Assembly (NCBI GenBank): GCA_017506865.1
Contig: JAFCMP010000152.1
Location: 1 to 64,000, forward strand
Direction of reading: 5' to 3'
Source: Tribonema minus
Taxonomy: Eukaryota > Sar > Xanthophyceae > Tribonematales > Tribonemataceae
Length of the DNA: 64,000 nucleotides
Made by a program: the position numbers and the translations under genes. How positions within the stretch are numbered: the first letter of the stretch is position 1; each line of letters starts with the position of its first letter. Shown here piece by piece: positions 4,486 through 63,303 of the stretch. Under the pieces are notes generated by a model that had not been told where the DNA came from, ran no database searches, and saw only the letters and a list, made by a program, of their open reading frames with translations.

Positions 4486-7400
4486 ATGCCTCCCGTGGAG
4501 CAGCCGGAGGGGCCCATGGAGACAGCTGCAGCAGCGCCGAAGGAAGCTACTGCCCAAAGTGCCTCGACCGCAGCAGCGCCTGCAGGCCCGACGCTCAGCG
4601 ACTACGAGGCCCTGAAGAGGGAGAATGCGGCGCTGCGCAGCGAGCTAACTCGCCTGCAGGAGGGCACCAAGCGCAAGCACAAGGTGGTTAAGACCACACT
4701 GGGCTCGAAGATGTCCCACCACGTCGTAAGCCATCAGGGCAAAATCAGCCGTCGACACATGCGAGGGACGGCGAGCAGCATGGCGTCCGCGGAGATACTG
4801 GCGGGCCTGTTCACTCCCCGAGAAACAGTACCCGAGAGGCTGCTGGAGCGGCTAGATGACCCCTCCTCTCATGTGGCGTACTTCAGGGGCAAGCAATTTG
4901 CCCTCGACCTGATGTCTCTATGCGAGCAAGGCCAGGAGCTCTTCGAGAAGGAGTCGCGGTGCCTGCACATCCAGTCCCCCTGTCACGTCTTCGGCGACAT
5001 CCACGGCAATCTCGACGACCTCCACTTCTTCGGGGAGAACGTCTGGTCCAAGGGCATACGCCTCACCCCAGGGCGCCTCCTCTTCCTAGGTGACTATGTC
5101 GACAGAGGCATGTTCTCACTGGAGTGCGTGGCGTACCTGCTCGCCATGAAAGTGCTGGCGCCGGCAAAGGTGTTTCTGCTGCGCGGTAATCACGAGCTCA
5201 GGGACGTCAACTCGTGGGAGGACTATTACGGGGAGGGCTCGTTCCTCACGCAATGCAAGGACCGATTCGGAGCGGAGAGGGGAGCCTATTTGTGGGAGGT
5301 GGTGAACCAGCTTTTTGACCGCCTGCCGCTTGCGGCGGTGATCGATCACGACATCTTCTGCATCCACGGTAAGCAGTCATCCTGAGACAACATTGTTGCA
5401 TTGTACATGCTTTTGAAACAAGGGATGTTTTCGTATAAAGTCTTAGGAGTGCCGATGTCGCAGCTGTAAGCCTCAGCTGACAGCTGGTGCACCTTGCCTG
5501 CACTGCGCGATGGTGCAACCGGCTTATCGTACCGCGGCACCGCATTTCACATGTCACCGTTTGGTGGCAGGCTGCGTTTTGAATGCTTTGAACAGTGCCT
5601 TGAAGAGCGTGCCATATTTCCGTGTCGCACACCTGTTCACTGCACCAACAAGCACCGCAGCGAATGGAGGCCGTGCTGTTCTTTGTCTCGTGACGCCTTT
5701 GCTAGTTGGCGCGTGTTGGCGCATCAGATCAAGCACCAGACACGGCCCTTCCAGCGCCAAAAAAAAAACAGGCAACTAAACCAAGCCATGCTGTCTCCAT
5801 TGCCATCCCATCCTGGAAACCCTAAATACCAGCTGACGACACATGTTCGAAGTGCACAAGCCTGTGTTCATCGCTACGTGCTGTGGAGTGCCTTGTGGTA
5901 AGTTCAAATCCCGACCACATCCCTCTGTTGAAGTTAGGTGCTACCGCGTGATGCGGCTCTCCTGGGCCACTGGCTCTCCTCTCGCTGCAACTCACGTTGC
6001 AACTCACTATAAAGCAACTTGCTATGAATTCATGCACGAAATGGCACATGCACACACAGCCTTCCCCGCCACACGAATCACTGCGCCTCCTCCCCCCCCA
6101 CCGCCGCTGCCGCCATCGCAGGGGGCATACCGCGGCCGCGCCCGGGCCTCGGCCAGATTGAGAGCATTCAGCGCGTGCCTGTCGCGGCAGCGGTGTCGCC
6201 GCCGTACCCGTGCGAAGACCCAGACTTGACTCGCGTCGCGTACGAGTGCCTGTGGTCGGACCCTGCGAAGGCGGCGGACGAGGCGCACATGGACGCACGC
6301 GGGTGAGTTCTGTGTATTCTTGAACTTGAAGTTTGTGTGTAGTCCTGAACGCTCAGCTCAGCCGGGGCAGTTGAGACGGGTCAGAGTGCATTCTTCAACA
6401 TGAGGTTCGTGTGCGTGAACCTGAACGCTCGGCCGCTGCAGTGGAGCTTGAGTGCCTTGAGTCTTGACCTGGAGAAGGGGGCAGCGACCTCCTGTGTCTT
6501 GCACCTCTACTTCAAGTGTGCGGATGTCACTACTTGAAGTTTACGACGGGGCGGCTCGCTGCAAGCACTTTTTTTTTTTGTAGACTCGCGACAACAAGTC
6601 CTTCTGTGCCTCGCAATGACGTCCCTGCTGCATGCAGCCTCACACTCATGTGTGTCAGGCAGCAGCGATCAGCAATGGCCGCGCAAGCGGCGCACATTTG
6701 GGAAGGCGCAAGGCTGGTAGGCAGTCAGTCGCTCTCGGCGCAATGCCCCATTCGCGCTGCGCCGTTGCTGAGGACTGCTGCTGAGTACGGCATGACACGC
6801 CGCTGCTGTAGCGATGCCAGCTTCCCCCGCTCGCACCGAAGCCGATTCGCTCGGTAGCCTTTGCTCAGCGCTTTGACTGCATGGGAAGGGCAGACTTCAT
6901 CAACTGCATACCCTCAGGCCCCCCTCCCCCTTGCCCGCCCCGCGCGCCACATACAGCGCTTACCGGTTCGGCAGCTATCCCCAGTAACTCGCCTGGATGA
7001 TAGCAGACGTGCTGCCTGCATACCCCCCCCCTCCCCCCCCTCACCACCACCACCACCACACACACGCACACACAGCTACGGCGCGAACCTGCCTTGCTGA
7101 CTAAATCCCCCCCCTCCCCCCCCCCCCCCACACACACACACACACACGCAGCTACGGTGCGAACCCCAGTGAATTACCCAAATGACAGCAGACTTGCTGA
7201 CTGCACCCCCTCCCCCCTTTCCCCCCCCACAAAGCTACGGCGCGAACCCGCGCGGCAGCACGGCTCAGTGCTTCGGCCGCGCCGCCGTCGAGGACTTCCT
7301 CGCGGAGCACGACATGTCCTACATCATCCGCGCGCACGAGAAGACGGCAGAGGGCATCACCGTGTCCAAGGGGGGGCGCGTGCTCACGGTGTTCTCCACG

Positions 7401-10092
7401 AGCAAGGACCACCACCTCGGGGATGGTGCCATGTCAGCGTGCCTGTTGGTGGACGACGCGCGCATCGAGGTCATCACCAAGGTGAGCGCTGCTGCTGGTG
7501 CTGAGCGTTGCTGTTGAAGTGTGTCAGTTGGCGCGTGCCTGCTGGTGGACGACGCGCGCATTGCGGTCAGGTGTTAGTTTGCGCATGTGTGCTGGTGGAC
7601 GACGTGCGTGTCGAGGTCATCACCAAGGTGAGCGCTGCTGCTGCTGCTGCTGCTGCTGTTACTGCACACTTGCACGAAGTGTAGTCATGTCAGGGCGAAC
7701 GGGCTGCTGCCGCCAGTGCTGCAATACTTCATGCACTAATACAGTGTTATACGTTGTTTATTGGGGTTCTTCACAGGACTCGCCCGCCGCGTCCATTTAG
7801 TGTTATTAAGTGATTTCTGTCTTCCACACTTTGCCGCACTGCGTCGCTTGCCCTCATTGCCACCGCACTGACATGCCTGCGTGCCGGCTCACGTGACGGC
7901 ATGTTGATCATCACCATGGGCTGAGCGCTGCTGCCTGCATCTTCTCAACAAAACAAGCTGTCAGTTGTGCAGTGACGCGCCTCTCGCTTTTCTGCGCTAA
8001 ATTGACGCTCTGGCGCGCCCACGCATCTAGAGCACGGACTTCAACAAAGCAGCGTCACTCTGCCTGCGCTTGTAACTGCCTGCGGCGCTTGGACTTCTTA
8101 TGACCCCTTTCCCCGCTGCGTACGTGTGCTATACACAGGGCCCACAAAAGTCTCTCTTCGTGTGCATACTCGCACACATCGCATACTTCAAGTATGAGAT
8201 CATAGACAGTTACCTGTTCGCTTAAGTCATTTCTGTATTTCACGAGCTCCAACTTTGCAGGACCCGGCGTACGTCTCGCGCACGGAGCGGCGGCGCCGCG
8301 AGCGCGCGGCGCTGGCAGCAGGCGGCAGCAGCGCCGCCGCCGCCGCTGCTGCAGGCCCCCCCGCCCCCATCTCCGGCAAGCTCTTCAGCTTCTCTGACGA
8401 CCACGTTTTCGTCGGCGGCGTCGCGCCTACGACCGTCGAGGAAGAGGTCGTATACTTCTCCGCGCCGCTGGCGGGCAGCGGCGGCGGCGGCGCGGCGGCG
8501 GACGACGGCGCTGCGGCGGCGGCAGCGCTCAACGGCAGCGGCGCCGCCGGCGCGACGCCCGCGATGGTCGTCGACAGCGACGACGATGACGACGAGGATG
8601 TAGTCGTCATAGGGGCGGCGGGGACGGGGGCGGGGGCGGGCGGCGCGCGCGCGCGCTGACGCTGGATTTGGACGACGCGCAGGCGCAGGCGGCGCCGCAG
8701 CGCGCGCACGGCGAGGGCGCGGTGCCGTCGCTGGACTCGCCGGCGAGCGCGATGGCGGCAGCAGCGGTGGCGGTGGCGGACAGCGGCGGCGGTGGCGGGG
8801 GGCTGAGCCGCCGCGACTCGCTGGATGTGGGGCTGTTCCGGCAGCTGCGCGCGCGGGCGCCGCAGGTGAGGGCGCGGCGCCTGTTGTTGTGGCAGTGCTC
8901 AGCCGTCGCTTTGTTGTTGATGTTGGGTTTCGGCTGCGTCCGGTGTGCGCCGTCTGTGAGCTTCAGCTGCGGAGATCGCAAACTTAAACTTTAAATAGAA
9001 TTTGAAGTTGTCTGTTGCGTCCGGGCCTTTGCGGTCCGGGGTGTGTACGGGGGGGGGGGGGGGGGCTCGGAGTCTTGAAGTTATGCGTGAGCGACAACAT
9101 CCCCTTGACATTGTGGACAGCCTCGGCAGCCCTCAGCTCGAGAGCATGTCATTGAGCATCACTGCCATGAACGTAACTGTAAATTTGGAAAAATTGAGTT
9201 GAAGAGCCAATAGTGATGGTCCAGGTTTGACACGCGATGCTCCAGAGTTGCACCTTGGCACTAGAAACTTTATTGCCACGTGTGGGTTGAAGTTCAATGA
9301 AGTCAACTGCCAGGCGGTGTTAGCCGCTGCAGCTCTGCATGGGGCAGATGAGAGCTTGCAGCGGATGCCCGTGCTGCATCTATTCAGAACACACTTGGCG
9401 TGGATTAGGGCTAGAGCGTCGGGGATAGGGTCAAGCTAATTTATTACAAGTGGCAAGAACGGCATGCGGTGTGCTACATGCTGGAGCAGCTGCGCCTCAC
9501 GCCATCACACCCCTAAAGCCCCCCCCTCCCCCCCCCCCTGCCCCCTCATACACACACCACGCCTCAGGTGGTGCTGCAGCCGAGCGCGGAGCAGCGCCGC
9601 GAGTTCCGCGAGGGCGGCGCGCTGCTGCCGCGCTCGCGCGCGTCGTCCGCCGCCGCGAGCGACAGCTACTCGAGCGACTCGGACTCCGACTCGGACGAGT
9701 CAGTCGGCGACGCCGACCTCCACGCCGACGACACCTTTGGCGACGATGCCGTGGACCTTATGGTCAGCGAGCGTTGGGGCGCCGCCGCCGCCGCGCACGC
9801 CCTCAGCGGCGGCGGCGGCGGCGGCGCGGCAGCGGCGGCGACGCCACTCGAGGGTGGCGGCGATGCGCACGCGGGCGGCGGCGGCCGCCACCGCGCGGCG
9901 TCGTCCGACAGCGAGGAGGAGGAGAAGAGCTGCGGCGGCGGCGGCGCGGCCAGCCACAGCGGCAGCGACAACGATGACGGCAGCGACGGCGACGGCGGCG
10001 TCAGCAAGCCGGCGGTGCGGCTCGGCGGCGGCGGCGGCGGCGGCGGCGCGGTGCGCGGCCGCGGACGCGAGCGCCCCGCTGTCGCGTTCTAG
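4486..10092 (+). CDS. PPP-family serine/threonine protein phosphatase with acidic/Gly-rich C-terminal tail
   Basis: Exons: 4486-5368, 6122-6302, 7235-7481, 8261-8599, 8683-8865 and 9568-10092, giving about 785 aa. The metallophosphoesterase fold has all metal and catalytic motifs: GDIHGN (170-175), GDYVDRG (202-208), RGNHE (233-237), HGGIPR (294-299, split by intron 1), LWSDP, and IIRAHE with His389. It should dephosphorylate Ser/Thr residues with a two-metal centre. Residues 37-60 form a short predicted coiled coil. The N-terminus is Ala-rich. The tail after about residue 440 is low complexity (Ala, Gly, and Asp/Ser runs) and ends in an Arg/Gly-rich segment. The wording around GDIHGN fits a protist PPP clade near PP1 rather than PP2A or calcineurin. 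The reading frame changes inside the fourth coding block. An 83-bp GT-AG intron (8600-8682) restores it exactly, but this would be far shorter than the other introns, so an indel or assembly error is an alternative. Confidence 0.85.
6955..7250 (+). repeat. Junction array at the phosphatase exon 3 acceptor
   Basis: Four direct copies, about 80 bp apart, of the intron 2 tail plus the start of exon 3. The acceptor and exon start (AGCTACGGCGCGAACC or close variants) occur at 7074, 7150 and 7233, with a decayed copy near 6970. Each copy carries its own C-rich or CA-rich tract. Only the last (exon start 7235) leads into open coding sequence. The CA repeats at 7040-7075 and 7129-7150 belong to the units. 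Confidence 0.8.
7420..7640 (+). repeat. Junction array at the phosphatase exon 3 donor
   Basis: The true exon end, coding [13 protein letters not shown] then GTGAGC, lies at 7441-7487. Two degraded copies of the same edge follow at about 7530-7577 and 7588-7637. The second keeps the whole exon edge and an intact GTGAGC donor, followed by a CTG microsatellite. Confidence 0.8.
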
Positions 10093-11692: not shown

Positions 11693-11755
11693 AGGCTTAG
11701 GGTTAGGGTTATCCTAACCCTATAGCCTAAGGGTTGCCTAACCCTAACCCTAAGC
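11693..11755. repeat. Interstitial telomere-like fold-back (TTAGGG)n then (CCCTAA)n
   Basis: About three TTAGGG-type units run into CCCTAA-type units around an AT-rich centre, then a second CCCTAA run. The orientation TTAGGG to CCCTAA is that of a head-to-head telomere fusion, but the tract is very short. Confidence 0.85.
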
Positions 11756-17500: not shown

Positions 17501-20500
17501 GCAAGAAAATACGGGGCTTGAAAGCGCCAATTGGTCACATTTGCATCATTGGGTGCTTGCTAGGTGCTTACCATGCGATGGTCATGCCAGGAAAGCACTC
17601 CAATTACGTGCACTACCCTAACCCTAACTGTTACTCTAGCTCTGACCCTAGCCCTAACCCTAACCCTAACCCCAAAATCGCGGCGAAAGGGGTTCCCAGG
17701 CCGTCATTGGGCCCAACAGGTCCCCTGCATGATGCATGTGTGTTGCCTGAGCGATGATTTGCTGTAGATATGGCTATATATGGCTATATACGGCAGGGAG
17801 TTTAGCCTCATGCGCCTCACCCATATAGCACCCCCTTGGGGCGCAAGGGGGCGCAAGGGCGGGGCTAAACCATCGAGGCGCAAGGGCGGAGGTTTAGCCG
17901 GGAACCCTGTGAAAGCGGCGTGGCGGTTACTGAATTGGCGTTGGACGTGTGCCCGTTAACCTTCATGTTGTGCGGCATAACAACAGGCGGCAAGCGTGCA
18001 TGAGGGTTCCGCGGCCACTTCCCATCAATCTTCAAGGCAGGTGTGCTAGGGCTCTGTGCACTGAGCTGGTAGTAGAGCATGTGCATGATCAACTGTATTG
18101 TTCTGCGCACAAGTGGTAGTTTTCAATTCCACGGTGTAGTGTGTGGGGTGGTACCGAGGACTTGAAGCAGCGCAGCGCTCTGTGTACAGATTCGCCGAGC
18201 TGCACCAGCTGCGATGTCATGTACACAAGTGCAAAGACACATGATTGTAGACACGCGATCCCACATGCACGTGCAGCACTAATTATTCCCTTTGCGTGTA
18301 AGCAGTCACAAGAGCAGCGCTGGCACAACAGCAATACACCCTAAAATACCCCCCCGAAAAGAAACTCACCCGACGTTGAAGAGGAAGGAGTTCATGTACG
18401 TCTCGTTGAGCTTCATCGGGTGCAGCGTGAACCACATGAGGCGCAGTCCGAACTTGAAGCAGCCCTTCACGGCGGCGACGAGCAGGTACATGGCGAAGAG
18501 GCCGATGCTGATGGCGCCAAAGAGCGGGAACCACTTGTCGAACCAGTTGAAGTACGCGTTGAGGAAGAGCGCGTAGGGCGGCGTCGCCAGCATGTACACG
18601 ACCATCTGCGATGCGGCGGGGCGGCAGAGACGATAGGTCGGCGGCAGCAGCAGCGCTGAGTGCCGGAGCGGTCAACTCTCACGAGAGACAACTATAACGC
18701 GCCGTGGCGCATCAACACATACAAGTACTTCTACCTTGTTCAAATAGGAGCAAGACTTTTGAGTCGAGCAATTGCGCAGCAGTCGCAGCGGTGCATGCGC
18801 GAGCTCATGCCTGAAGGAGCGGCGAGCGACAAGAGGCAGCAGCGCTCAGTGCCGTGGCGGCGAGTCAACGATATACTTGAAGTATGAGCAACAGGATAGT
18901 TGAGGTTGGAGCGGAGGTCAGCGTTCCAGCGCCGCAGCCCCAAAAGCGGCCCAGATTATTATCATGATTGGCAAAAAACGAGAGGGAAAGTTGAACGGCA
19001 AAGATGAACCAGCGGAGAGCAAAAGCTGCTCAAAGTGGCGAACCACAAGGCAGCCACCCATCGGCACGATTCCCTTATGGCAGGTTCGTACACCGCCGCG
19101 GGCTATATGCCCATGTGCACCTCAGCACTTGCAAGTGTGTGATGCACTTCAAGTGGGTGAATGAGGGCTCCATCTGTAATGTAACAGCCAGAGCACGCAG
19201 ATGAAGTTGGAGGCTACGCAGCTACGCCGACGCACTCAGTACTTCAACGTGGTGAAGTGCATGTCAGAGCATGTGATTATGTGATGCCAGTCGCACTCAC
19301 GTGTGCCAATTTGACCACGCATGAAGCCAGAGACAACTAGCAATGCCCATTCACTCCAGAACTACAGTTTTGTTGTAAAGTGTATGCTGATGTATGCAGT
19401 TGCAAGATACGCTTATAAATATGTATCAGGCAGAGCACAACGTTGCCCAGGCAGAGCAACAGGTACATCAAGTACATGTTGAAGTCTGTGGTTGCAGGCG
19501 CACTCACGTGTATCAGCCAGAGGACGCAGATGCAGCCGGAGACGATGCCCACGAGCATCCAGAAGAGGGGCTTGAGGGGGTTATACTTGGTGCTGTACTC
19601 CTTGCACAGCACCATCTGCTGGTAGTCCTCCTCCAGGATGTACACCATCTGCAGCGACACGGGTGAGTGAGTGAGTGAGTACTTGAGTCAAGAACAGCTC
19701 TGAAGTCTCCTCCAGAATGTACACCATCTGCGGCGACGCGGGTGAGTGAGTGAATGAGTGACTGAGTACTTGAGTCGAGTGGCTCTGGCAACCCATCGTC
19801 TGCTGAGGATGCAGGATGTGTGCACTGTCTGCGACGACTGGCCTGGAATCTGCCAGAGTGCCATGAGGTTAAGGGTTAGAGGTTAGGGCGTGTTGTCGTA
19901 TACTTCAACCGAACACCTCGCAAGCACTTCAACCTGGGACACTCCGCCCCAACGTGCGACGACATGGCTGCTGCAATGCATGCGCGCGTGCAGCAGGCAC
20001 CAGTCACCCCATCATAATTGCCAGCATGTTGACATGTAATGCTGACTAACACAGGTCCTGAGTTTCCTCAGGGCAGACTGGCCTACCAGTGGAGTGGCAA
20101 TGTGAATACATCACGTTTCGGACTGCCAATGGTGCAAATCACCTGATTGAAGCGCTTGAACTCCGTCGCCTCCGCGCACAATGGAAGCATTCGCGCCTGC
20201 AGCTGGTCCCATTGGTCCCGCGTTGTTGTTGTTGGGCGAAGTCCCAGCACTGGTTCTTTACAGGGCTAGACTGGCCTGCTGCTGTAAGTATGGGAAAGTA
20301 CATGCGGTATACGGACGACCGGGCTAGACTGGCCTGCTACTGTGAGTAGGGGAAGTACATACAGCATACGGACGACAGGGCTAGACTTGCCTGCTTCTGT
20401 AAGCCTGGTGAAATGCGTTATAGCATACGGTCGGCAGGGCTAGACTTACTGTAAGCATGGGGAAATACATACAGTATACAAACAGCGGCAGCGCGCGCGT

Positions 20501-30064: not shown

Positions 30065-31855
30065 ATGAACAGCTTGCGCGGCATAGCGTGGCGAGCGACT
30101 GGCAATGTTAGAGCCCTGGCTCTCAGCCATGGCCGAGCAGCAGCAGTAGTACAGCGATCAATATCGATAAACCATCAAGCAGGTGAGAGATGCAGCAAGC
30201 GCGCCCTTCTTCTTGCCATGGGCACCCTCTCAACCACACACGCAACTTTCCACCCTACTCATCTGCATTTGCTTCGAAGCGCAAGCTGATGACATGGTCA
30301 AACATGTGAATGCCAAACAAGGCGTCGAAAGTGGCAGCGCCTTGCTGCGTAGAGCTGTTTCAGACAGCTCGGGCTGAATGTCATGCGCCCGGCACTGGAC
30401 TCTCTGGCGGAGCAGCCTTATGCCCGCATACGCTGGCAAATGCGTCACGTATGAGCAGCTATGCCTCACTTCATGCAGCCGACAGACAGACATGCGCCGT
30501 GCACATTGGCAGCCAAGGAAGGAAGGAAGTGCTATAAATGAAGGAAGGAAGTGCCAGAACAGACACGCAGCTGATGCGCATGCGGTGCGCGTCTGTACCC
30601 GCTGTAGCTTCACTCAAGCGCCGTCATCACAAAACCCTGAAATGTGACCTTCGGCCCTCGCTCCGCCTCGCTCGCGACCCTTGCATACCGTACTTACCTA
30701 CCTTACCCTTACCCTACCTGCCCTCAGCCGTGCCGCCGGATCTCTCGCGCGTGCGCCTGCCGCCGCGTACGATCCCGGAGGAGCTGCTCACGTTCAAGGC
30801 GCGCACGTACTTTGCCTCCGACACGGGCAACCCGTACCCCAACGTGCACGGCGTGCACCTGGCGGAGTTCAAGGTAGTGCTCAGCGTGCGCATGGAGGAC
30901 CTGGGGCTGGACCGCACGCAGCAGGAAAAGCTCAGGAAGCTGGCGGGGCTCAGGTGGGCGCGCCAGCATGCGTGTGTCTTGTTGAAATCTGCGCTCGTTC
31001 GAGGCTGACAACTGGCAGGGCTCGTCGGAGTGTGCGCTTGGTGGAGGCTGCGAAGCTCAGCAAACTGGCGGGGCTTGTTGAAGTGTGTGGCTGATAGAGG
31101 CTGTGAAGCTCAGGAAATTGGCCGGGCTCAGGTACGCGCGCGTGCGCGCTCGCGCGCTCGTGTTTTGTTGAAGTGTGTCACGGCTCAGGTGCTGCAGCAT
31201 GCCTGCATGGTGTAATGGCAGCGGGCACCTGCATTCAAGACACGCGCCGCCCCCCTGTGCCATGATGAGCTGTTTGTGCGCATATGGAGCTGCGTGCGAT
31301 GATGCTCAGCTGTTGGACGAGCACTGCCATGCGGAGCGGTGTTGAACCATCTTCCAACGCTGGTGCGACCGTGCTTTCTCGGAGGTTGGGGCTAGAGTTG
31401 ATGCCTGTCATCAGCGCTCGATACATCCGCAAGCCCCGCAAGCCGTTGCGCACAAGGCGTCGCTGCCGCAGACGCGTGCCCAGCTCACCCGTGCTCTGCG
31501 GTGCCCATCGATGGCCAGCAGAAACTGCCTTGTACAATCAAAAGTGTCATACGTAAGACATTGGTCGCAACGCCTGTCCAGCGCGCGTGCCGCCCTTCTC
31601 AACACCACTGATCAAATAGCCTGCCGCTGCCCCGCTCGGTCCGTTTTCGAACACACGCGCAGATTCAACAAGAAGGAGCAGATACTGCGGCTGCCGTGCG
31701 AGCTGTTTCCGTCGCGCGTGGAGAACAAGAAGTACCTCGTGTACCTCCTCGAAACCCTGCTCGAGGAGGCGCGCAAGCCGGACGCGCCGGAGCCCGCTGC
31801 GCCGCCGCTCACAGAGCATCCCCACGAGCAGGACACCATTCACATCAAGTTCTAA
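30065..31855 (+). CDS. MRPS35: Mitochondrial small-subunit ribosomal protein mS35
   Basis: Three exons, 30065-30182, 30728-30953 and 31663-31855, splice in phase to 178 aa. The first about 39 residues are basic, rich in Ala, Arg and Ser and lack acids, as expected for a mitochondrial presequence. The core matches the mS35 (MRPS35/Rsm24) family: HLAEFKVVLSVRMEDLGL, then QQEKLRKLAGLRFNKKEQ across intron 2, then ENKKYLVYLLETLLEEAR. mS35 is a mitochondria-specific protein of the 28S/37S subunit. The protein is shorter than in animals and yeast (about 320), keeping only the conserved domain. The chosen start is ATG 30065. The first two codons of the longer open frame are not an ATG start. Copies of the exon 2 end follow in intron 2. 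Confidence 0.88.
30930..31150 (+). repeat. Junction array at the mS35 exon 2 donor
   Basis: The exon 2 end, AAGCTCAGGAAGCTGGCGGG then CTCAG|GTGGGCGCG, is followed by three copies of 50-90 bp at about 31000-31030, 31045-31090 and 31100-31140. The last keeps CTCAG|GTACGCGCG. Each copy carries the TTGTTGAARTSTG intron word. Confidence 0.8.
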
Positions 31856-46900: not shown

Positions 46901-49900
46901 GATTTTAATGCGGCGGCAACATATTGCATGTTGAGAGCATGCAACATGCGTTGGGTTCACAATGGCACCACTATCAGGTACCATTTTGCCTCCTTCCCAC
47001 TGCATGATTGTCACCAGCCCATCTTCATCACTTCATCAAACTGCCTTAACCAGCTTCTTACAATTACGTGGAGTGAACGTGCATGATGAAGTAAAGGCAA
47101 ATCGCATGTGAACTTCAACAGTGGAGCGTCACCTGATGGCCATCACCATGCCTGCCACCGCCTCGGCCAGCTCCTCGCAGTTGAATGTGCCCTCGGAGGG
47201 GTCTTCCTTGCACTCGCTCATGGCGGCATGCACCTGTTGAGCAATGCAGAGGGGGGGGGGGGGGGGTGAGCGCTGTTGTCACTTACTGTAGTTTCCGTGT
47301 CTGATTTGTGTCTGATTTAAAAGTCAACACTCATGGCAGCGTGTACCTGTTGAGCAATGCGGGGGGGGGGGGGGGGGTTGAGCAATGTCATCACTGTCAG
47401 TACGCATAGTTCGTGTACTGAGCAATACATACCGTTGTGGTTGAAATCAACATTGGGATGGATGCTCAGCGGGATATGCTGAGCCCATGCCAAGGAGGGG
47501 GGGCGGGTGACCGCTATCATTGCCGTTGGCACAAACTTTTCGAATCAGGTTTTGTGCACTTCACGTTCAGCGCAGGCACCATGTGCACCTTTGGAGCAAT
47601 ATATATGAGGGGTGGCGGAGCACTGACATCACTGTGAACGCTCCGTCGGCGCACGCGTGCCATCGTTGCTGTCACTCGCAGATCTACCTGTAGCAAAGGC
47701 GCACATGCAGATACTTGCCGCCTGAACTGCCGCGACAGCAGCCGTAGCGACTGCCCCAGCCACAAACCTCATCTGTTCGCTTCAGCATGGCAACACTCCT
47801 GTCAGCGCACGCGCCACCGGTCACGTGCCACAACGGCAGCACCAGCTGCGTGGGTCGCCTGGGAGTGGCCTTGACTACATTCATAGGTCACTCTTTGAAG
47901 TACTCGACAAATTCAACCCTTAAGTCCCGAACCCTGCTGCAAGCACACTTTTACACAGCGGCGTTGTGCCCTCCGTGTGCACTCCGCAACCCTGACGCTG
48001 ACGTAGCCTGACCCAGCTGGGCGAACTTCACCATGGCAAACTTCAACATATGAGCAGACGTCAATATGGTAAACTACAACACTTCAGGGGCCCGTCACCT
48101 GCACGAGCGGCAGCCCGAGATTGGCGCCCATGATGCACTGGATCGCGTCCGTGTGGCTGATGCGCTGCTGCTCGTCCGCGCGCAGCACGGCGCGCACGTG
48201 GTCGCAGAGCGCTGCCTCCTCGCGCGGCACGTCCTGCAAAGCGAAACGGCAGCAGCGGTGGCGATGGTGAGTGTGAGGTGCGGCAGTTGGGTGATGATGC
48301 TCAGCACGGCGCGCACGTGGTCGCAGAGCGCTGTCTCCTCGCGCAGCTCGTCGTGCAAGGCAAGATGGCGGCGGCGGCAGCGGTGCAGTGCGCGTGAAGG
48401 TGCGTGAACGAAAGTGCTGCAGCTGGATGGTGATGCTCAGCGTGTGACCGCAGAGCGCTGCCTCCCCCTGGCGCGGCACGCCCTGCGAGGCAAAGCGGCA
48501 GCAGCGGCGGTGATGGTAAGTGTGAGGTGCGGCTGTTGGATGATGATGCTAAGCATGTGGTCACAGAGCGCCGCCTCCTAGCGCGGCACGTCCTGCAAAG
48601 CAAAGTGGCAGCAGCGGCGACGATGCGCAGCACGGCGGCTCTCAGAAGCGTCACCGACTCAGCGTTGGAATGCAGCCACCAGTTGTGTTTACACACTGCA
48701 GGCGATCTCAAGGGCATTGCTTCTAGCGTGCAGACGGCGCTCCTCAATCAGGCTAGCATGATTCTGATAACAGTGCTCAGTAGATGAACGCAGAGCGCTG
48801 CCTCCTCGCGCAGCACGCAGCGCAGTGGCACGGCAGCAGCGTCAGCGATGCGCAGCGGTGCAGTGCATGTAAAGTTGCAGCGCAGTGGCACGGCAGCAGC
48901 GGCAGCCATGCGCAGCGGTGCAGTGCGCGTAAAGTTGCGTCAACTAAAGTGCTGCAGCTGGATTGTGATGCTCAGCATGTGACCGCAGAGTCGCGCAGCA
49001 CATCCTGCGAGCAGCGGCAGCGCCACCATGTCCAGCAGCATGTTGATGCGACAGGCACAAACTCCTCATAGTCGATGACACCGTCGTTTTTCCTGTTCCA
49101 GACTTGAACTTCATGATAAATACAGAAACCGTGAGAATATGTACCTGTAACTGCCGCGCCACCATGTCCAGCAGCATGTTGAACGCGACGGGGACGAACT
49201 CCTCATAGTCGATAACGCCGTCGTTGTTCCTGTCCACGACAGTCATCATGAGGTTGAGCTCGCGCCTTGTGAAGCCCAGGCCGGAGTCGCGCAGGCACTT
49301 GAGGAACTCGGCGCGGTCAAGGGTGCCGTTGCCGTCGACATCCACGCCGCGGAACACCTGCAGTGATATACCATGGTGTGTTCTTAAATACGCATGCTAG
49401 TGATCGCACCATGCATTCACGCGTGCTATCGTACGAGTACAACAATCACATGATACACTTGCGTATAAATCTTTTTACTAATTACTGTACCACAGGTATG
49501 TTGTGGAGCAGGGTACAAGAAAAGGCATGTGGTCTAGGATGCTATTGCCATCTACATCCATGCCGCAGAAGACCTGCAATGATATATATTGTGCATTTGC
49601 GTGTTCTCTGTTTTGTCGCAATGAAACTGATGCAAGTGGCTGATGCGTGCATCAAGGTGTGCGTGGTCAATACGTGTCCTCAGTGTCGTGGCAAAGACAA
49701 CGAGAATTACCAGATTAACGCGTCAAAATGTGCGCGGTCAAGTATGGTGTTGCCGTTGCCGTCGACATCCACGCCGCGGAAGACCTGCAGTGATGTGATG
49801 ACGTGCTGTAGATCGCACCACGCACCATATGTATACGTCTACTTTCACAGAAGCACGGCAATCACATTGTACGCTTGCGTGTTGATCATGCAAATTACCG

Positions 49901-52896
49901 CACCATATGCATGTTTACTTCAGTATACAAGAAGAGGCATGTGCTCAAGCATGCCGTTGCCATCGATGTCAACGCCTTGGAGGACCTGCGGGCATGAGGA
50001 GTTGCCTATTCTCGACAACAGATTATAACAATGATGACAATGATAGCCAATGAAGCCAATGTCCCCCCATGACACTGGAGCGCCAAAAGCATCAGTGCTC
50101 AAACGAACGTGCCTATATACCCTACCGATAAAAGCCTTACCTCACATACTACTGCACATACCTATTGTTAAAAGCGGTGCCTTGCGTATGCTCGCCTCCA
50201 GCTGCCCCTTTGGCTGACCCTTCAGCACCAAGTCCTTGCCCCTCCATCCCCATGACGCTGGAGCGCCAAATGTGTCAGTGCTCGTGCAAAACGTGCCTAC
50301 ATGCCCTACAGTTGAAGGGTTGCCTCTAAAGCCTTATGTCAATCACACATTGTTGTTATGATTATGGTCATTACCTCGCGTATGCTCGCCTCCAGCTCCT
50401 CCTTCGGCAGGCCCTTGAGCATCAAGTCCTCGCCCCCCCCCCCTCATGACACTGGAGCGCCAGATGCATCAGTGCTCATGCAAACGTGCCTATATACCCT
50501 ACATTCAAAGGGCTGCCTCTAAAACCTTACTATCATAATTATCATCATTAATATTGTCATCAATTACCTCGCGTATGCTCGCTTCCAGCTCCCTTTTTGG
50601 CACCCCCTTGAGCAAAAAGTCTTTGCCCCCCCCCCCCCCCCCCCATGAGCGCCAGATGCGTCAGTGCTCATGCAAAACGTGCCTGCCTACTACCCTGCAG
50701 TGGAAGAGTTGCCTCTAGGAAACCTCACCTCGCGTATGCTCGCCTCCAGCTCCCCCTTCGGCAGGCCCTTGAGCAAGAAGTCCTTAGCCTCCTCCTTGGC
50801 GCTAGATCGACGCGTGCGCGCGGTCGACGCGTACGACTCCTTCGCCAGCAGCGCCATCACCAGATCCACCGCGACCGGCACAAACTCTTTGTACTCCACT
50901 ACGCCGTTGTCATTCTCATCCGCCTCCGCCAGAATGTGCAGGACGTCCGAGTCCGAAAGTTCAAGTTCCTCCGCCAGCAAGTTGAAGATCTCCTGAAACT
51001 CGCGCCGCGACAGCGAGCCGTTGCCGTCCGTGTCGGCCTCCGTGAAGAGCAGCGAGATGCGGTCCACGAGCGCCTCGTTGGTGAGGCCCTCGGCCTGCAG
51101 CGGCATCGCTCCGCTGACATTTGCCTCGCGCGTCGTCACGCGCATGCCGAGAGGCGTCGCCAGGCTGTCGGCTGCGCGGCAACGCGGAGCCATCATGCAT
51201 CAGACGGTTAATAAGGCAGCCTAATGGGGGATGTGGGTTTTCGATTGGTCGCAACATTAATGAGGCGCATGGCGCCGCTCACGTTCGCCTCGCGCGTCGT
51301 CACGCGCATGCCGAGCGGCGTCGCCAGGCTGTCGGCTGCGTGGCGACCACAGTTACAAGGCGCCATCATGCATCAGACGGTTGATGGGGGGTTGGGTTTG
51401 TCAGTGCTGTTTGCATCGCTGGTGAGGCCCTCCGCCTGCAGCAGCATGGTGCCGCTCACATTTGCTTCGCGCGCATGCTGAGCGGCGTCGCTGTCGGCAG
51501 CGCGGCGACCGCGGCAACGATAAGGCGCCATCATTCATCAGACACTCACTGTCAAGGCAGCAGAGTGAGATGAAATTGGATTTGCATTTTGGCGCGTTTC
51601 AGGCAAGGTCCTTAACCGGCTGCCGCGCGGTGCCGCTCACGTTTTGCATCGTGCGTCATCATGCGTATCCCCTGCCGAATGCGCGGCGTCCGTCGACGAT
51701 GTCTGCCAGCCAGCAACGGCAGTGCTCTGCAGGCGTGCTGATGATGAGCGTCATTGTGCTTATGGCGGTGACCATAGGCTGATGTCGATGATTGGATGGT
51801 CGGACGCGTCACGCGCAGCGCAGCCACAGCAGCGAGATGCGGCACCCGCACATATGGGGTAGGTAAGTATTGGAAGGTATACATCAGCGCGGGCGCGCCG
51901 CTGATGACAGCTTCCAAGGATGAAAGCTGTGCGTATATGTCGGTGCTTCGCGAAGAAGCAGGGTGCGTGTGTGTTACTGGTGTTAACAAATCAACCCTGT
52001 TCCCGAGCTGCACTCTGTTGGCGAGCATGTCCTACGGAGACGCGGAACAATTGAGTCGTGCATGCATGAACATACCTGTCAGGTGCAGCCGATCGTGGAC
52101 ACGCAGATTGCAAACATTAGGTTATGGGTGCCACACTTCAGTGGCAGTGCTCGTAGCACGTGCCAAGGCGGTAGCAAGTCTGCGGCTCTGTGACAGAGAA
52201 GCGAGTGCTTCGTGAGCAGCTTGTGCACCTGCAGCAGCAGGGCAGCTCCAAGAATTCTGCGAAAATGCAGCACCAGACCACTGCCGCCCTAGTCTGATGT
52301 ACTGACACAGAGCTGTCGTAGATTGCTGACTTCTTGAATCACCACCCACGATCTGGTGTGGTGGATTATTGCATGTTTGTTTCACCGACACCCCAGGGTT
52401 TAAAATGGTATAATGTCGCCGTCTGCTCGCAGCTGCCCACTGGCAGTGCATGCCACGTATCAACAAGTCTCTCGCCTGATGCAGACTTTGTCAACTTCAA
52501 CGATGAACGCGCACGCCATCTTAGTCATGGTTTTGTCGCGCCTGCTAAACCGTTTCAGTGCCGCAGTGCAGAAATCAGGGAGATCGGCCGTGGCACAGGC
52601 TCGTAGTCTACACAGACCAGTGTGCAGCCCATGCGAGGTTCACCTGCAGATTCAGCGCCCGTGCTCTCGCCAGCTCCTGCGCCATGCACATCGCCTGTCG
52701 CTATGCTGGCATCCTCTCCTGCATCGTGAAGATCCCTGAAATATGCATAAGCCCAACTGTTGATGTCCTCTGGTTGCTCCTTGATGGCGGCCTTGGCGAA
52801 GGCCCGCAGTATGCCGGGGAGCGCAGCGGGCACATCGAACTGTCGAGTGAAATCTTCTGTGTCCTGAAGGGGGTGAGGCTGCGTCAGCGACTCCAT
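43969..52896 (-). CDS. RSP7: RSP7-like flagellar radial spoke protein (RIIa domain plus EF-hands)
   Basis: Exons (minus): 52896-52644, 51171-50729, 49357-49145, 48233-48099, 47233-47133, 46377-46326, 45646-45461 and 44184-43969. All phases close, giving 532 aa (about 58 kDa expected). Residues 22-55 form an RIIa/R2D2 dimerisation-docking helix pair (VPAALPGILRAFAKAAI, then QPEDINSWAYAYFRDL). Four canonical EF-hand loops follow: DTDGNGSLSRRE (131-142), DENDNGVVEYKE (169-180), DVDGNGTLDRAE (238-249) and DRNNDGVIDYEE (274-285). The later exons look like degenerate EF-hands. RIIa followed by EF-hands at this size matches Chlamydomonas RSP7, which sits in the radial spoke stalk and may link Ca2+ to dynein control. 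A CABYR/EFCAB-type protein is the alternative. The C-terminus is Gly/Ser-rich and acidic. It shares a 194-bp upstream region with PI synthase. Confidence 0.85.
44330..45030 (-). repeat. Tandem units in RSP7 intron 7
   Basis: An approximately 320-bp unit containing AATGGCAGCGCGTGYGT, GTGCGGCGCGCACAG and CCACCACTKG blocks occurs at about 44530-44720 and 44850-45020. Partial copies lie near 44340-44480. It is intronic, and I could not align it with an exon edge. Confidence 0.7.
45330..45835 (-). repeat. Junction arrays on both sides of RSP7 exon 7
   Basis: The exon 7 end (AGFPGLNAQQLQ plus donor), real at 45461-45510, has a copy at about 45333-45402. The exon 7 start (EIEGMDSGAFTEKLRTV), real at 45595-45646, has a copy at about 45773-45830. 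Both ends of one exon are thus echoed in the flanking introns. Confidence 0.85.
46425..46690. repeat. Tandem pair with CCCTAA insertions in RSP7 intron 5
   Basis: A unit (GACGCTGCACGCTGTGAG ... CAGCGTTGAGGGAGCGGTGC) at 46428-46500 recurs at 46598-46690. The second copy has about 25 bp of CCCTAA repeat (46629-46654) where the first has none. The first copy is followed by a long CCCTAA tract (46506-46563). Confidence 0.8.
48150..48930 (-). repeat. Junction array at the RSP7 exon 4 acceptor
   Basis: The exon 4 start (DVPREEAALCDHVRAVL) and intron tail, real at about 48185-48245, recur at about 48300-48365, 48445-48500, 48555-48605 and 48783-48830. Weaker copies lie near 48880-49010. The period is about 110-130 bp. 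Copies keep CAGAGCGCTGCCTCCTCGCG and a GGCAGCAGCGG intron block. Confidence 0.85.
49015..49990 (-). repeat. Junction arrays on both sides of RSP7 exon 3 (EF-hand edges)
   Basis: The exon 3 end (coding NNDGVIDYEEFVPVAFNMLL, real at 49145-49222) has a copy at about 49018-49105. The exon 3 start (coding FRGVDVDGNGTLDRAEF, real at 49305-49357) has copies at about 49530-49580, 49728-49790 and 49930-49990, with a period near 200 bp. The Ca2+-loop codons for DVDGNG are still readable in the copies. Confidence 0.87.
50080..50795 (-). repeat. Junction array at the RSP7 exon 2 donor
   Basis: The exon 2 end (coding DFLLKGLPKGELEASIRE, real at 50729-50790) recurs at about 50568-50625, 50375-50432 and 50172-50235. 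The period is about 190 bp. Each copy is followed by the same intron head, containing poly-C and the block ATGACACTGGAGCGCCA with GTGCCTATATACCCTACA or variants. Confidence 0.9.
51100..51700 (-). repeat. Junction array at the RSP7 exon 2 acceptor
   Basis: The exon 2 start (coding ADSLATPLGMRVTTREANVS, real at 51110-51171) and adjoining intron recur at about 51280-51350, 51455-51515 and, more weakly, 51630-51710. Each is followed by CATCATGCATCAGACGGTT or a variant. Confidence 0.85.
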
Positions 52897-53090: not shown

Positions 53091-55870
53091 ATGACATACA
53101 GCTACGTGAGGATGGGTGTCTTGGGGCAACTGCGCGTCGTCGTGTTGGTATTGGCTTGCGCTGTCACGCTCGCTGCTGCTGAATCAGCAAGCAGCATCGC
53201 CGCGCCGCTGGTGCGCACAGCACAGGCGGATGCTGATGCTCGCATAGCCGCGCAACGTCACAGGATCCCAGCGTTCAGCAGGAGAAGGGGCGTGGCTAAC
53301 GCTGCCTTGAGGGGGGGGGGAGGCTATAGGTTGAGGAGAGGCACCCCTGGAGACACCCCATTGCAGGTGAGTCGCAGCATTTGCTGACTTACATGCACAG
53401 CCTGAGGAACCACGGGAGAGCATCGCGCTCCTCTGCATGGGACACTTCAGGTCACACATCAAAATCAGGTCGTGGAGGGGATATTGCCTACGCAAAGCAT
53501 GTTTGCCGGGAAACATTATGCAAGCCCGCTAACAGTGAGCACTGATGTAGACAATTCACGTTGCAGGCTGCTTGGCGTAATGCCTCCCCCCCCCCCATTG
53601 CAGGTGTTTCTGTACTGGCCGAACATGATCGGCTACTCGAGGATCGTGCTCATGGTGGTCAGTGTGCGTACCGCGCTCTGGCGCTGGCAGCTGTCCATCG
53701 GCTGCTACCTGCTCTCATTCGCACTTGACGGGGTGGACGGCATGGCCGCACGAAAGCTCAACCAAACTTCCAGGCTGGGCTCCGTGCTGGACATGGTCAC
53801 TGACAGGTGCGGAAGTGTAACTGCTGCGGATGTAACTGCTGCAACTGCCTTGACTGTGGAATTCCATGATGCCCGGCGCGAACCTCGCATACAAGGATGC
53901 TGACGCTATGCTGCCAGGTGCGTGTGCTGCACGCCGTTGCCGATATGCAATGCCGCACTCAAATCGTTATTACTGGTGCTTGAAATGCACCACCTGCACT
54001 CAGCCATGGCACTCCACACCGGTGCACACCCTCAAACCCCAGTTGTCACCGCCCTCCGCGTGGGCGACGCGCGACAGCCACGCTCCTCGTGATAGCAGCA
54101 GCGCTCGTGCACACTCTGACGAGCAGCCACTGCCCGTGTGCTGTGAGGCAGCTACCATGACATCGTGCATAGGAAATTGCTGCACATGTCATTTCGTGAC
54201 GCCTTCCATCCTCTGCCCTCCCGCGAAAGGTGTGCAGCGGCGACGCTCCTCAATGCTGGCAGCGCTCAGAATTCATACATACTTCAAGTATGAAGTAAAT
54301 CACAGCAGAATTCAACTCGTTGGCCCTGAACGCCCCCTCTGTACGCCAGGTGCGCAACGGCGACGCTCCTCGTGGTGCTGTCAGCGCTCAGATTGTTTTG
54401 ACGTTTTATACAAACTTCACAAAGTATTTATAAAATTAATCATCGCTCACTTCAAACCATCTTCTATTCTCCGCACTCCACATGGAAGGTGCGCGACGGC
54501 GACGCTCCTCATGGTACTGTCAACGCTCAGATTTCATACATACTTCAATTTCAACTATTTGACCCTGAATGCCCCCTGTATGCGAGGTGTGCGACGGTGA
54601 CGCTCCTCATGGTGCTGTCAGCACTTAGATTTGCTCATATATACTTCAAGTATGAAGTGATTACTGCAAACTTCAACTGTTTGGCCGCTCTGCACGCCAG
54701 GTGCGCAACAGCGACACTCCTCATGGTGCTGTCAGCGCTCAACCCGGCGTACATGCCCGGCGCCGCGGCCATGATGGCACTGGACATGTCCTCGCACTGG
54801 ACGCACATGTACCGCTCGCGCGCGCATCACAAGGCGGTGGCTGCGGATACCAACATCCTGCTGCGCGCCTAGTGAGTGGCGCGTGCAGCGCTTTCACACC
54901 GACGCAGCGTGCATGCATGCTGCGATGTCATGTAGTGTTCGTGTTTGTAGCCTCCAGGTGTCATGTCATGTGCGTGTGTGCAGCCTCCAGGCGCCTGTAC
55001 GTTGCAGGCGGTCGTGCCGGACACCAGCGCGCTGCTGCATACCATGTGTGCGTGTGTGTACCCTTCAGGCGTATGCTATCGTCGCAGATGCTGCAGTTCG
55101 CGCCTGATGCCAACGCAGCTCTGTGCGCGCGCAGTGCTCAGTGCCGTTTCACGCCAACACAGCGGCGCGCTTGCGCATGTTGCAATGTCGCGTGTATGTG
55201 TACATGTTATTCAAATGTGTGCTGCCGTTGCGGCTACTCGGGCAGGATACTCATGCGGTTCTGCAAGCCTAGTGGTCGCGCGTATAGGGCCGGGCGCTGA
55301 TTGCATCGGCACGGCGTGTTACGAACGAGGCGCCAGCAATGAAATACACTTTGAAGTGTGTATGGGCTCTACATAACGATCATTGCGTGCTCGCAATAGG
55401 CCGCAACAGCCGCTACAAGCTCGACCTTTGGGCTACGCGCGCTTCGGAAGCCTCAATACATACAGTACAAATCACCGTGAATTGACGCAGCTGAATAAGA
55501 CTGGCGCCCCGCCGGTTCGCACACGCATGCAGTCGTATCGCGTTCAAGGTTCACGTCTCTCGTGCTACGCACTATACTACACGCTCTTCTGACCACCACC
55601 ACCACCCCCTAATTCCCCCCCCCCTCCCCCCCCCCTCCCCTCCCCCGTAGCTACGGCTGCAAGCCGCTCTTTATGGGCGCCATCGTCTCTGCGGAGGCTT
55701 TCTACGTGCTGCTGTACGTAAGGCACTGGGTGGGGGCGGGGGAGGGGGCGCGGGCCCTGCGCTGGGCGCTGCGCGCGGCGACCCCGGGGTGGCTGCTCAA
55801 GCAGGTCGTCAACACGGCTCAGCTGTGCTCTGCGCTCGCCGACATTGCCACCAATGACGCTGCGCCGTAG
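53091..55870 (+). CDS. PIS1: Phosphatidylinositol synthase (CDP-diacylglycerol-inositol 3-phosphatidyltransferase)
   Basis: Exons: 53091-53366, 53604-53806, 54701-54871 and 55651-55870, phases closed, 289 aa. The full CDP-alcohol phosphotransferase motif D-x2-DG-x2-AR-x8-G-x3-D-x3-D is present across residues 134-159 (DGVDGMAARKLNQ ... VLDMVTD). The enzyme joins CDP-diacylglycerol and myo-inositol in the ER membrane. PIS-specific landmarks are FLYWPNMIGYSRIV, MALDMSSHWTHMY, SHK-like AHHKAV, and NILLRAYYGCKPLF across intron 3. The catalytic domain starts at residue 93. Before it, exon 1 adds a hydrophobic helix (about 8-30, LGQLRVVVLVLACAVTLAAA) and an Arg/Ala-rich stretch, absent from the 213-aa human enzyme. 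This may be a signal anchor, or a signal plus transit peptide. Met8 is an alternative start. The C-terminus is helical and Ala-rich. Confidence 0.9.
54220..54745 (+). repeat. Junction array at the PI synthase exon 3 acceptor
   Basis: The exon 3 start (coding CATATLLMVLSALN, real from 54701) has four upstream copies at about 54232-54275, 54350-54392, 54490-54532 and 54588-54632. Each has AGGTGYGC at its head, then GACGCTCCTCATGGTGCTGT or close variants. Each is followed by an ACATACTTCAAGTATGAAGT block and a GGCCCTGAACGCCCCC block. Period about 100-140 bp. Confidence 0.88.
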
Positions 55871-60165: not shown

Positions 60166-60208
<43 letters not shown>

Positions 60209-61134: not shown

Positions 61135-61165
<31 letters not shown>

Positions 61166-61183
61166 GCCGCCACTGCCGCCGTC

Positions 61184-61228
<45 letters not shown>

Positions 61229-63303
61229 GCCGTCGAGCAGCACGCGCGTCGCGATGTGGCGGTCGAGGATGGTGAGGTTGCTGCGGCCGACGAGCGGCGC
61301 CATGAAGGCCTGCCACGCGGAGACGCGGCGGCCGGCGTGGATGGAGAAGTGCATGTCGGCGCGCACGCCGTCGCGCACCCAGCCGACGGCATCCTCGCGC
61401 TGCGGCGCGGGGGCAAGGTCGAGCCCTGCGCTCATGGCGGACGCGAGCGCTTTGCCGGTGACGCCCGCCTGCGCGGAGAGTCACCACAGGCAGTGAGTTC
61501 AACTGTGACTTCGACGTGGTGTTGGTGATGATGGCGGTGAATATACGGAGAGCGATCTTAGGAGAAGCGTTGAAGCATGGCGGCGGCGAGGGCCTTGCCG
61601 GTGACGCCCGCCGGCGCGGAGAGTCACAGCGGGTGATCGGCAGTGACTTCAACTGGGACTTCAACGTGGTATGAGTGATGATTACGGTGATGACTTATGC
61701 AGCCTAGAGGGTGCCTTTGGAGATGTGTCGAAGCAGGAAGATCAAGCGCAGGCGCGACAGCGCTCACTCAGATGAGTTGACATCAAAAACGAGAACACGT
61801 GGGGACGCGTTGAAGCCCTAGTCCAAGCACAGGCACTCAAGCAAGTGTTGAAGTTAGAAGTGAGCGATGTCGAGACGCGCTGCAGCTTCAACTTCAAGTG
61901 CGTCGATACCAGCGCCCGCAGCTCGTCAGAGGCGAGCAACCCACTGGAGCAGAAGACAACGCGCTGCTGATACTTCAAGTTGAAGTGCACAGGGCAGCAG
62001 CAGCGCGCTAGCGCTAGCGCTCACCGGTATAAGCGCTGGCTGCAGCACCGCCTCCACCGCCGCGAACCCCTCCTCGACAAAGTCGAGGCTCCAGGGCCAC
62101 GCGGCGTAGTCGCTGCGGCGGCCGCGGATGTAGATGCACGCGTTGATGAGCGTGCTGCCGCCGCCGCCGCGCCCCACGAATGTGAGCGAGCGACGCCCCG
62201 CAAGTTGAGGTTGCGGCGCCGAGAAGTGGGGGTCGCAGAGGGGCCACCCCCTCTGCAGGTTGCTGAGAAAGCTGGCGGGGGCCTGGATGCCGGGGTCCCT
62301 GCATGCGGTGGCAGTTGAGGATGAAGGAGCGTCATCATGTGGAGTTGAAGTTGAAGCTGCGGCTGAGGCGGCGCGCGCAATGCGTTGTGCGTCGCCGGCG
62401 CCGGAAGAGACTGGAGTCGCGTGCACGGCAGCTTGTGAGTGCAGCACCTCAACAAGCGGTAGGCGCTGATTGTGGTGTTAAACCAACGCATCGCGGTAAC
62501 GAAGCCTGCGTCACCAGCAGATGCGTCTTCGTCTTCAACATTGTTAAAGAAGACTCGTACTTGCACTCCGTCTCCCCCTCCCTCTTTCTGAACAGGCAAG
62601 TGGAGTGCATTTGCGCCCTCTCTCTTCATGACCAGAATCACCGGAGGTAGGCAGTCTATTGCACTAAGCTGACTCAAGCCTTTGCTTACTTGCCGTCCTT
62701 GCGCATATTTACTGATCCATAGCTTCAAGTTGGCCAACCACTGTAGTTGATGGTGCTCAGGCAGCTGCATGATGGCCAACTCACTACTTCAACAAAGTCC
62801 TTGGAGTTTGACAAAGGTGAGCGCAAAGGGGGTACACTTCCGCCCTGTTGATACCTGACACATTCACTGATGCTTGCGGGTCTTGCAGCTTGAGTGTCAG
62901 ATGATAGACGTGGCGGTGCGAAACATGAACTCGCAATCCTGCGATAGCTTTACAAGGGTGACATTAGCGCAACCTCACGCACTGAAGCTTGGCTGAAGAC
63001 ATGCGGCAAATGGCCGAGCTGTGGCGGATGATAGAGGCCCCGCAAGCATAGCAAAATGTACAGACAGTTGATCGCAGACCCACACTAGCGCAGGTACTCT
63101 TGGCAGTATTTTGAGACACTGCAAGGAAACCAGGAGCACCTGAATGCATCGATGCTGCCATCGGTGAGCAGGACGACTTTCGCCCCCTGCCGCACCAGGC
63201 GAGAAACGAATGCGCAGCCAGCGGCCCCAGAGCCGACGACAAGATACTCGCAGTCCAGCACGATGTCCTCAATGTCAGGCGCGGATGCTTCGGTGGCCGG
63301 CAT
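59397..63303 (-). CDS. GMC-family FAD-dependent oxidoreductase
   Basis: Exons (minus): 63303-63140, 62298-62025, 61468-61013 and 60515-59397, phases closed, 670 aa. The N-terminal FAD-binding fold reads EYLVVGSGAAGCAFVSRL (GxGxxG at 24-29). GMC signatures follow: PGIQAPASFLSNLQ, then GGGGSTLINACIYIRGRRSDY (first signature), and GALYTPQLLMLSGIGPRAHL (second). The C-terminal catalytic part has WHAAASCAMG with His597 and PSANTQAMAMMVGDRAA with Asn635, the usual His/Asn pair. Members oxidise alcohols or, in algae, decarboxylate fatty acids in light (FAP). I cannot choose between these. Two long Gly runs (61170-61225 and 60170-60215, plus strand) insert into the substrate-side domain. The frame is open upstream to ATG 63447, so a longer N-terminus is possible; 63303 places the Rossmann fold at the usual distance. 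Confidence 0.88.
60515..60790 (-). repeat. Tandem units beside GMC exon 4 acceptor
   Basis: About four copies of a 60-75 bp unit (GCAGATCGAG ... TACATTGGGTTT ... TCAAGTGTGT, plus-strand view) lie directly upstream of the exon 4 acceptor in intron 3. The unit is mostly intronic, without clear exon sequence. Confidence 0.75.
61440..61680 (-). repeat. Junction array at the GMC exon 3 acceptor
   Basis: The exon 3 start (coding AGVTGKALA) plus about 90 bp of intron, real at 61440-61545, recurs at about 61570-61680. The copy has GCCTTGCCGGTGACGCCCGC and the same GTGACTTCAACTGKGACTTC intron block. Two copies. Confidence 0.82.

Follow-up and report, generated by a model that had tools for sequence, protein, structure and literature searches.

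Introns in a 64,000-nt stretch of DNA from Tribonema minus (hereafter the window, meaning the whole stretch) carry degenerate tandem copies of the exon-intron junctions that border them. Copied stretches of ~60 to 200 bases lie side by side in the introns and often include the edge of the neighboring exon, i.e., the repeat unit crosses the exon-intron boundary, and this occurs at both donor and acceptor sides. We consider it probable that the cause is general local tandem duplication, that the junction arrays are the edge of intron growth, and that they are structurally the same as the “mirages” named in lancelet genes (see below).

Eight genes with 29 introns were modelled in the window. In our junction test, each junction was represented by at most 50 nt of its exon joined to 20 nt of its intron and compared with the rest of that intron, with significance (p < 0.01) judged against 200 stretches taken from introns of other genes. 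A junction copy was detected at 24 of the 58 splice ends (13/29 donors and 11/29 acceptors), where ~0.6 would be expected by chance; two of the 24 are weak, PPase A2 (score 20) and PIS D2 (score 16). At least one junction copy is present in 21/29 introns and in seven of the eight genes (EIPR1 has none, GMC has one). This bears out an earlier note on the window, which had described such copies at about twenty junctions, plainly in six genes and once in the GMC gene. Segments made of exon sequence only, 50 nt long and taken from the end or the start of an exon, are found again in the own-side intron in 22/42 cases and in the opposite-side intron in 0/42 (Fisher, 1e-8); in the same window test, exon-interior segments were matched in an intron in 5/77 cases.

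The window lies within contig C152 of a 158-Mb assembly of 554 contigs and, judging by protein matches, belongs to the nuclear genome of T. minus, a yellow-green alga. A 497-aa protein spliced from five exons has a full-length, 93% match to T. minus protein P0001, and T. minus proteins P0122 and P0176 match two further genes. The modelled genes encode a calcineurin-like phosphatase (PPase), an LMBR1-like membrane protein (LMBD), EIPR1, a mitochondrial ribosomal protein, a CRT-like transporter, an EF-hand protein, a CDP-alcohol phosphatidyltransferase (PIS), and a GMC oxidoreductase. The models come from a self-trained exon chainer, and were checked with Pfam, with homologues, and, for the EF-hand gene, by exact mapping of a transcript-derived protein. 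Of the introns, which have a median length of 902 nt, 7 have transcript evidence, 13 have homology evidence, and 9 come from the gene finder only. The junction, interior, codon-position, and intron-end tests use revised models for LMBD exons 4 and 5, CRT exon 6, and EF-hand exon 1; part of the array listing rests on earlier exon boundaries. The LMBR1-like gene has two apparent GC-AG introns, with GCAAGT donors at 24475 and 22125 on the minus strand.

The arrays are listed here by gene. All come from the junction test, and the EF-hand entries rest in addition on the transcript-derived protein.

7543..7660, plus strand: PPase, donor-side copies of the end of exon 7235-7481 (score 49)
7045..7092, plus strand: PPase, acceptor-side copy of exon 7235-7481, with 17 exon nt (score 20, weak)
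31053..31177, plus strand: mitochondrial ribosomal protein, donor-side copies, exon 30728-30953
34263..34669, plus strand: CRT-like, acceptor-side array of 3 copies of ~143 bp upstream of exon 34744-34988
35033..36615, plus strand: CRT-like, donor-side array of exon 34744-34988, with ten copies listed and GTGAGT intact in six
37437..37687, plus strand: CRT-like, donor-side array of 3 copies of ~96 bp, exon 37266-37385
39801..40865, plus strand: CRT-like, donor-side array, exon 39443-39733
51262..51543, minus strand: EF-hand, acceptor-side copies, exon 50729-51175
50180..50633, minus strand: EF-hand, donor-side copies, exon 50729-51175
49531..49989, minus strand: EF-hand, acceptor-side copies, exon 49145-49357
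49017..49096, minus strand: EF-hand, donor-side copy, exon 49145-49357
48299..48866, minus strand: EF-hand, acceptor-side copies, exon 48099-48233
47330..47402, minus strand: EF-hand, acceptor-side copy, exon 47133-47233
45761..45872, minus strand: EF-hand, acceptor-side copy, exon 45461-45646
45316..45399, minus strand: EF-hand, donor-side copy, exon 45461-45646
54069..54625, plus strand: CDP-alcohol phosphatidyltransferase, acceptor-side array, exon 54701-54871
55106..55189, plus strand: CDP-alcohol phosphatidyltransferase, donor-side copy, exon 54701-54871 (score 16, weak)
24755..25252, minus strand: LMBR1-like, acceptor-side array of exon 24475-24635, found at a single place in the genome
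24174..24375, minus strand: LMBR1-like, donor-side copies of exon 24475-24635 (apparent GC donor)
21387..22003, minus strand: LMBR1-like, donor-side copies, exon 22125-22436
20139..20446, minus strand: LMBR1-like, donor-side copies, exon 20504-20641
19704..19767, minus strand: LMBR1-like, acceptor-side copy, exon 19508-19648
19148..19334, minus strand: LMBR1-like, donor-side copies of exon 19508-19648, at 71-75% identity
61576..61678, minus strand: GMC oxidoreductase, acceptor-side copy, exon 61013-61468

The clearest case is CRT-like exon 34744-34988, upstream of which the copies of the acceptor edge comprise two near-identical copies and one older one. Tandem Repeats Finder rows show head-to-tail direct copies, and spacers in 14 hand-picked copy pairs range from 0 to 104 bp, being 0 bp in the two pairs that are most alike (99% and 93%). 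Strong direct matches occur in 0.12-0.33 of tiles, depending on tile class, and strong inverted matches in 0-0.017. In the 18 arrays (of 24) for which copy extent was listed, the copied part of the exon measures 18-122 nt, and in none (0/18) is the whole exon copied. Because the copies continue through the junction into intron sequence, they are copies of unspliced DNA. We considered copying of spliced mRNA and rejected it. Matches that cross an exon-exon join by at least 10 nt were found in 3/29 introns; on inspection, two of these looked like a chance match or a donor copy, and the third, in LMBD intron 5, crosses the join by no more than 10 nt. The earlier note had also described copies as decaying with distance from the exon, and this holds in part. 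Of the 15 arrays with at least two copies, 10 have the greater similarity in the copy nearest the exon, but in the other 5 that copy is the less similar, and the rank correlation of similarity with distance is negative in 8 of 12 arrays.

The pattern is not confined to the window. We sampled 20 other loci of up to 10 kb each, going through the contigs from C5 to C290 in steps of 15 and taking positions 20,001-30,000 (195,335 bases in all); this is a fixed grid, not a random draw, and small contigs are over-represented. Eleven of 13 gene models, at ten loci, were kept (two low-scoring ones were dropped), and 30 of 158 splice ends were excluded for a short or weak exon. Junction copies were found at 43 of the remaining 128 splice ends, with at least one in 10 of the 11 predicted genes. 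Exon-only segments again recurred on their own side (35/116) far more than on the opposite side (4/116) or from exon interiors (4/94). When nine exons of these genes were compared with Pfam, one had no match and the others fell into known families (Y-family polymerase, glycosidase, Argonaute, M3 peptidase, AAA ATPase twice, NifU, and ADP-ribosylglycohydrolase). Similarly, whole-genome searches with hidden Markov models (HMMs) of chaperonin (56 rows) and kinesin (132 rows) gave six partial exon copies judged clear by eye, all six of which share the exon edge facing the intron they occupy; further rows, with overlaps of as many as 30 profile positions, are not counted here. At the DNA level, three chaperonin loci have at least four, at least five, and at least four exon-bearing copies, respectively; these loci were chosen for their copies and give no estimate of rate. 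Together, the sampled loci and the chaperonin and kinesin searches agree with the proposal that unrelated genes, on both strands and on other contigs, are affected. No clear partial copy was seen by eye in the genome HMM rows for HSP70 (80 rows) or PF00702 (11 rows). Two HSP70 loci, C179:221650-223642 and C90:846742-848762, have equal first-exon scores and are perhaps a recent duplication or allelic contigs.

The spread across contigs also bears on the idea that the arrays are mobile or introner-like elements, or assembly artefacts, to which we give next to no credence. Repeats are abundant and a single assembly was studied, as such an origin would have it. However, each of three arrays searched in the genome was found at its own place only (the search skips very common words), other contigs show the same pattern, and the copies are 67-99% alike over the exon part, with many holding exon sequence together with intron sequence. 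A search of viral contigs for related loci that encode LMBR1-like proteins gave none, and a search of phage records gave none either.

Are junctions themselves the target of duplication? The earlier note had suggested so, and AG|GT junctions could in principle be hot spots, e.g., through breaks coupled to splicing. We compared the junction test with an equivalent test of 70-nt tiles from within introns, using the same number of nulls (200) and dropping low-complexity tiles. Tiles were obtained from all window introns except one, which was too short, and from 70 of the 79 introns at the other loci. In the window, 24/58 junctions and 166/359 interior tiles recurred (p = 0.57; confidence interval [CI] for interiors, 0.36-0.56), or 164/359 tiles with 150 nulls. 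At the other loci, the corresponding values were 43/128 (0.336) and 201/706 (0.285; p = 0.25, interior CI 0.21-0.36). Thus, in the matched test, junctions do not differ in rate from intron interiors, which are equally repeat-rich. The repeat period tells the same story: in the window and other loci together, 61 of 103 clusters have a period of 100-220 bp (by runs, 52/89 in the window and 125/261 at the other loci), and runs that touch a junction do not differ in period from those that do not (n = 13 and 76; medians 164 and 171.5; p = 0.61). Junction-targeted duplication has on its side the many splice ends with copies and the somewhat higher junction values at the other loci, which are not significant in the matched test; given the equal rates and equal periods, we regard it as unlikely.

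The intron repeats in the window and at the other loci bear out the proposal that introns lengthen by tandem duplication. The same is not true of the further suggestion that introns are born in this way, from duplicated exon pieces that carry AGGT (the Rogers model). Such an origin would account for exon sequence within introns and for the many copies with splice dinucleotides. It would also make the head of an intron resemble the head of the next exon, and its tail that of the previous exon; above the null, this was seen for 0/29 heads and 0/29 tails, and the copies include intron sequence. Intron growth is therefore supported and intron birth is not, and we see almost no chance that the latter explains the arrays.

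Once made, the copies appear to be left to decay. Differences between copies and the true exon number 146/1190 (0.123), 147/1191 (0.123), and 223/1187 (0.188) at codon positions 1, 2, and 3, respectively; equal change at the first two positions with an excess at the third fits neutral copies of a constrained exon. Of the copies that align over the splice site, 26 of 37 on the donor side and 21 of 27 on the acceptor side still have the dinucleotide of the true site, so genes do carry decoy splice sites, as had been predicted. Base by base, retention at these dinucleotides is similar to that in the exon part of the copies, and not better (donors, 64/75 or 0.853 versus 0.871; acceptors, 49/55 or 0.891 versus 0.876). 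Just inside the donor, the intron part of the copies differs more than the exon part (0.247 versus 0.129).

Evidence on splicing comes from the EukProt protein P0121 (TRINITY name), which derives from a de novo transcriptome and is 99% identical to our EF-hand model. Eight of the 14 intron ends of this gene have arrays, and the splice dinucleotide is kept in 4/4 donor and 9/13 acceptor copies. When mapped to the window, P0121 uses the exon-proximal sites at all seven introns; this is one protein from one gene. The evidence that decoys are never used is thin, being one isoform of one gene.

Public protein models do include array copies. P0122 has four extra segments that lie exactly within array copies (50378-50413, 48317-48346, 45774-45824, and 45338-45397), none of which is in the transcript-derived P0121. 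P0001 contains an extra copy of an exon end (35051-35155) and terminates in a later exon-end copy (39801-39875); it lacks exon 40962-41014, the product of which resembles brown-algal protein P0002 by eye. Hence, two of the three public models examined contain array copies, six in total. The third, P0176, has none: it runs on past the apparent GC donor that ends the third exon, taking in 24424-24471, and residues that relatives have in common are missing from it. We considered its extra segment as an array copy and rejected this, since it maps directly after the exon, as expected of read-through past the donor. The copies in public models, together with the many intact splice dinucleotides, could be taken to mean that copies function as alternative exons or as decoy sites under selection. 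We think this very unlikely, given that P0121 lacks the extra segments of P0122, that codon positions 1 and 2 change as in neutral copies, and that the dinucleotides are not specially kept.

General local tandem duplication, as we picture it, would work as follows. Local DNA is tandemly duplicated throughout the sampled stretches, with units most often of 100-220 bp. A unit wholly within a coding exon would disrupt the protein and be removed, as the rarity of such units suggests, and one within an intron would be harmless. Where a unit overlaps an exon edge, it brings the splice site along with it; because the site is copied too, the original mRNA could still be made, and the duplication would be tolerated and survive. 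The exon copies would then decay roughly as neutral sequence, as the codon pattern indicates. The spliceosome would pick the exon-proximal site, i.e., the 5′-most donor and the 3′-most acceptor, as it does in the one gene with a transcript-derived protein. Exon definition is a natural candidate for this choice, because it is probably in the true exon alone that an acceptor and a donor lie at exon distance from each other. Duplicated units of this kind could come from fill-in of staggered breaks, flap misprocessing, or template switching.

Four observations weigh against this explanation. First, a cruder tile count at the other loci gave 0.33 for junction tiles, 0.21 for intron tiles, and 0.16 for exon tiles, and a modest junction preference may be compatible with the matched test. 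Second, window DNA without a gene assignment has repeats in 88/794 tiles, versus 267/833 for introns (a count that rests on the earlier exon boundaries); that such unassigned DNA is poorer in repeats would not be expected from a uniform duplication process. Low-complexity tiles were dropped from these two counts as well. Third, P0121 is named isoform i5 of its component, and other isoforms may use decoys. Lastly, the intron part of the copies is overall not more diverged than the exon part (0.136 versus 0.145), for which trimming of diverged ends by local alignment may be responsible.

Several known systems resemble the T. minus arrays in part. Tandem exon duplication also places exon sequence nearby, but it copies whole exons. 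Introner elements disperse over many loci, unlike the T. minus arrays searched. Head-to-tail direct copies are shared with minisatellite-like repeats. The earlier note knew of no named description, which is incorrect: mirages have been described in lancelet globin, Adh3, troponin C, and PGBD5 genes (PMC3087553, PMC3902484), with PGBD5, Adh, and troponin C also reported to carry them in the second of these papers (PMC3902484). As described there, mirages, like the T. minus arrays, are tandem repeats across exon-intron boundaries on the donor or acceptor side, with units of 150-160, 157, 60, 108, and 10-72 bp and with AG/GT often retained. Mirages are reported to leave normal splicing undisturbed; for T. 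minus, the observation on this point is P0121, with its exon-proximal sites at the seven introns of one gene. A handful of lancelet genes are named, one with haplotype variation, whereas the T. minus copies are degenerate and affect most introns of the window; T. minus is, moreover, a stramenopile alga, and its arrays show no junction targeting as measured here. Intron gain through tandem duplication in potato RdRp (PMC4974935) likewise involves duplication at splice sites, but the potato intron itself arose from the copy, a signature absent from the intron ends examined here. In human segmental duplications, internal tandem repeats also occur at exon-intron boundaries (PMC2812944); the human repeats alter transcripts, whereas P0121, the one transcript-derived protein available, ignores the copies. 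The open-licence literature searched gave no account of such arrays in Tribonema or in brown algae. What is new here is the lineage, how dense the arrays are, their preferred length, and the measurement against intron interiors, with its lack of junction targeting.

Other repeats and words are also enriched. The word GTTGAAGT/ACTTCAAC, with its variants, forms 91 clusters in the window, is strongly enriched and mostly intronic, and also occurs in the 20 loci; we rejected it as a gene-strand splicing motif, as it is enriched on both strands. Short interstitial runs of telomere-like CCCTAA are present at 46506-46563, 20785-20836, 17615-17672, and 11705-11754, among other places in the window, and at sampled loci; they might mark break repair. 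Their word TAACCCTA/TAGGGTTA occurs 39 times in the window and 0 times in modelled exons; it is strongly enriched across the 20 loci pooled, though absent from nine of them. Inverted repeats lie at 12116-12795, 13143-13411, 56872-56989, and 57437-57773, and an element found at both ~13.2 kb and ~56.9 kb is possibly a small transposon. Two of the sampled loci have longer, more similar repeats, perhaps another class of array: L010 at ~6343-9472 (periods of 330, 1077, and 1416 bp) and L021 at ~932-6710 (568 bp).

Long introns are a feature of the brown-algal relatives of T. minus. It is possible, if rather doubtful, that introns lengthen chiefly by recurrent duplication at a nucleosome- or Okazaki-fragment-like length (100-220 bp), with exon definition hiding edge-crossing units from selection; this could explain the long brown-algal introns, with lancelet mirages as an independent case of a single general process. 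As a practical matter, public protein models of T. minus can hold duplicated segments and should be used with this warning in mind. For biology, the T. minus genome displays intron growth as many half-decayed steps, such that intron lengthening becomes directly testable, as does the spliceosome's neglect of near-perfect decoys beside real sites.

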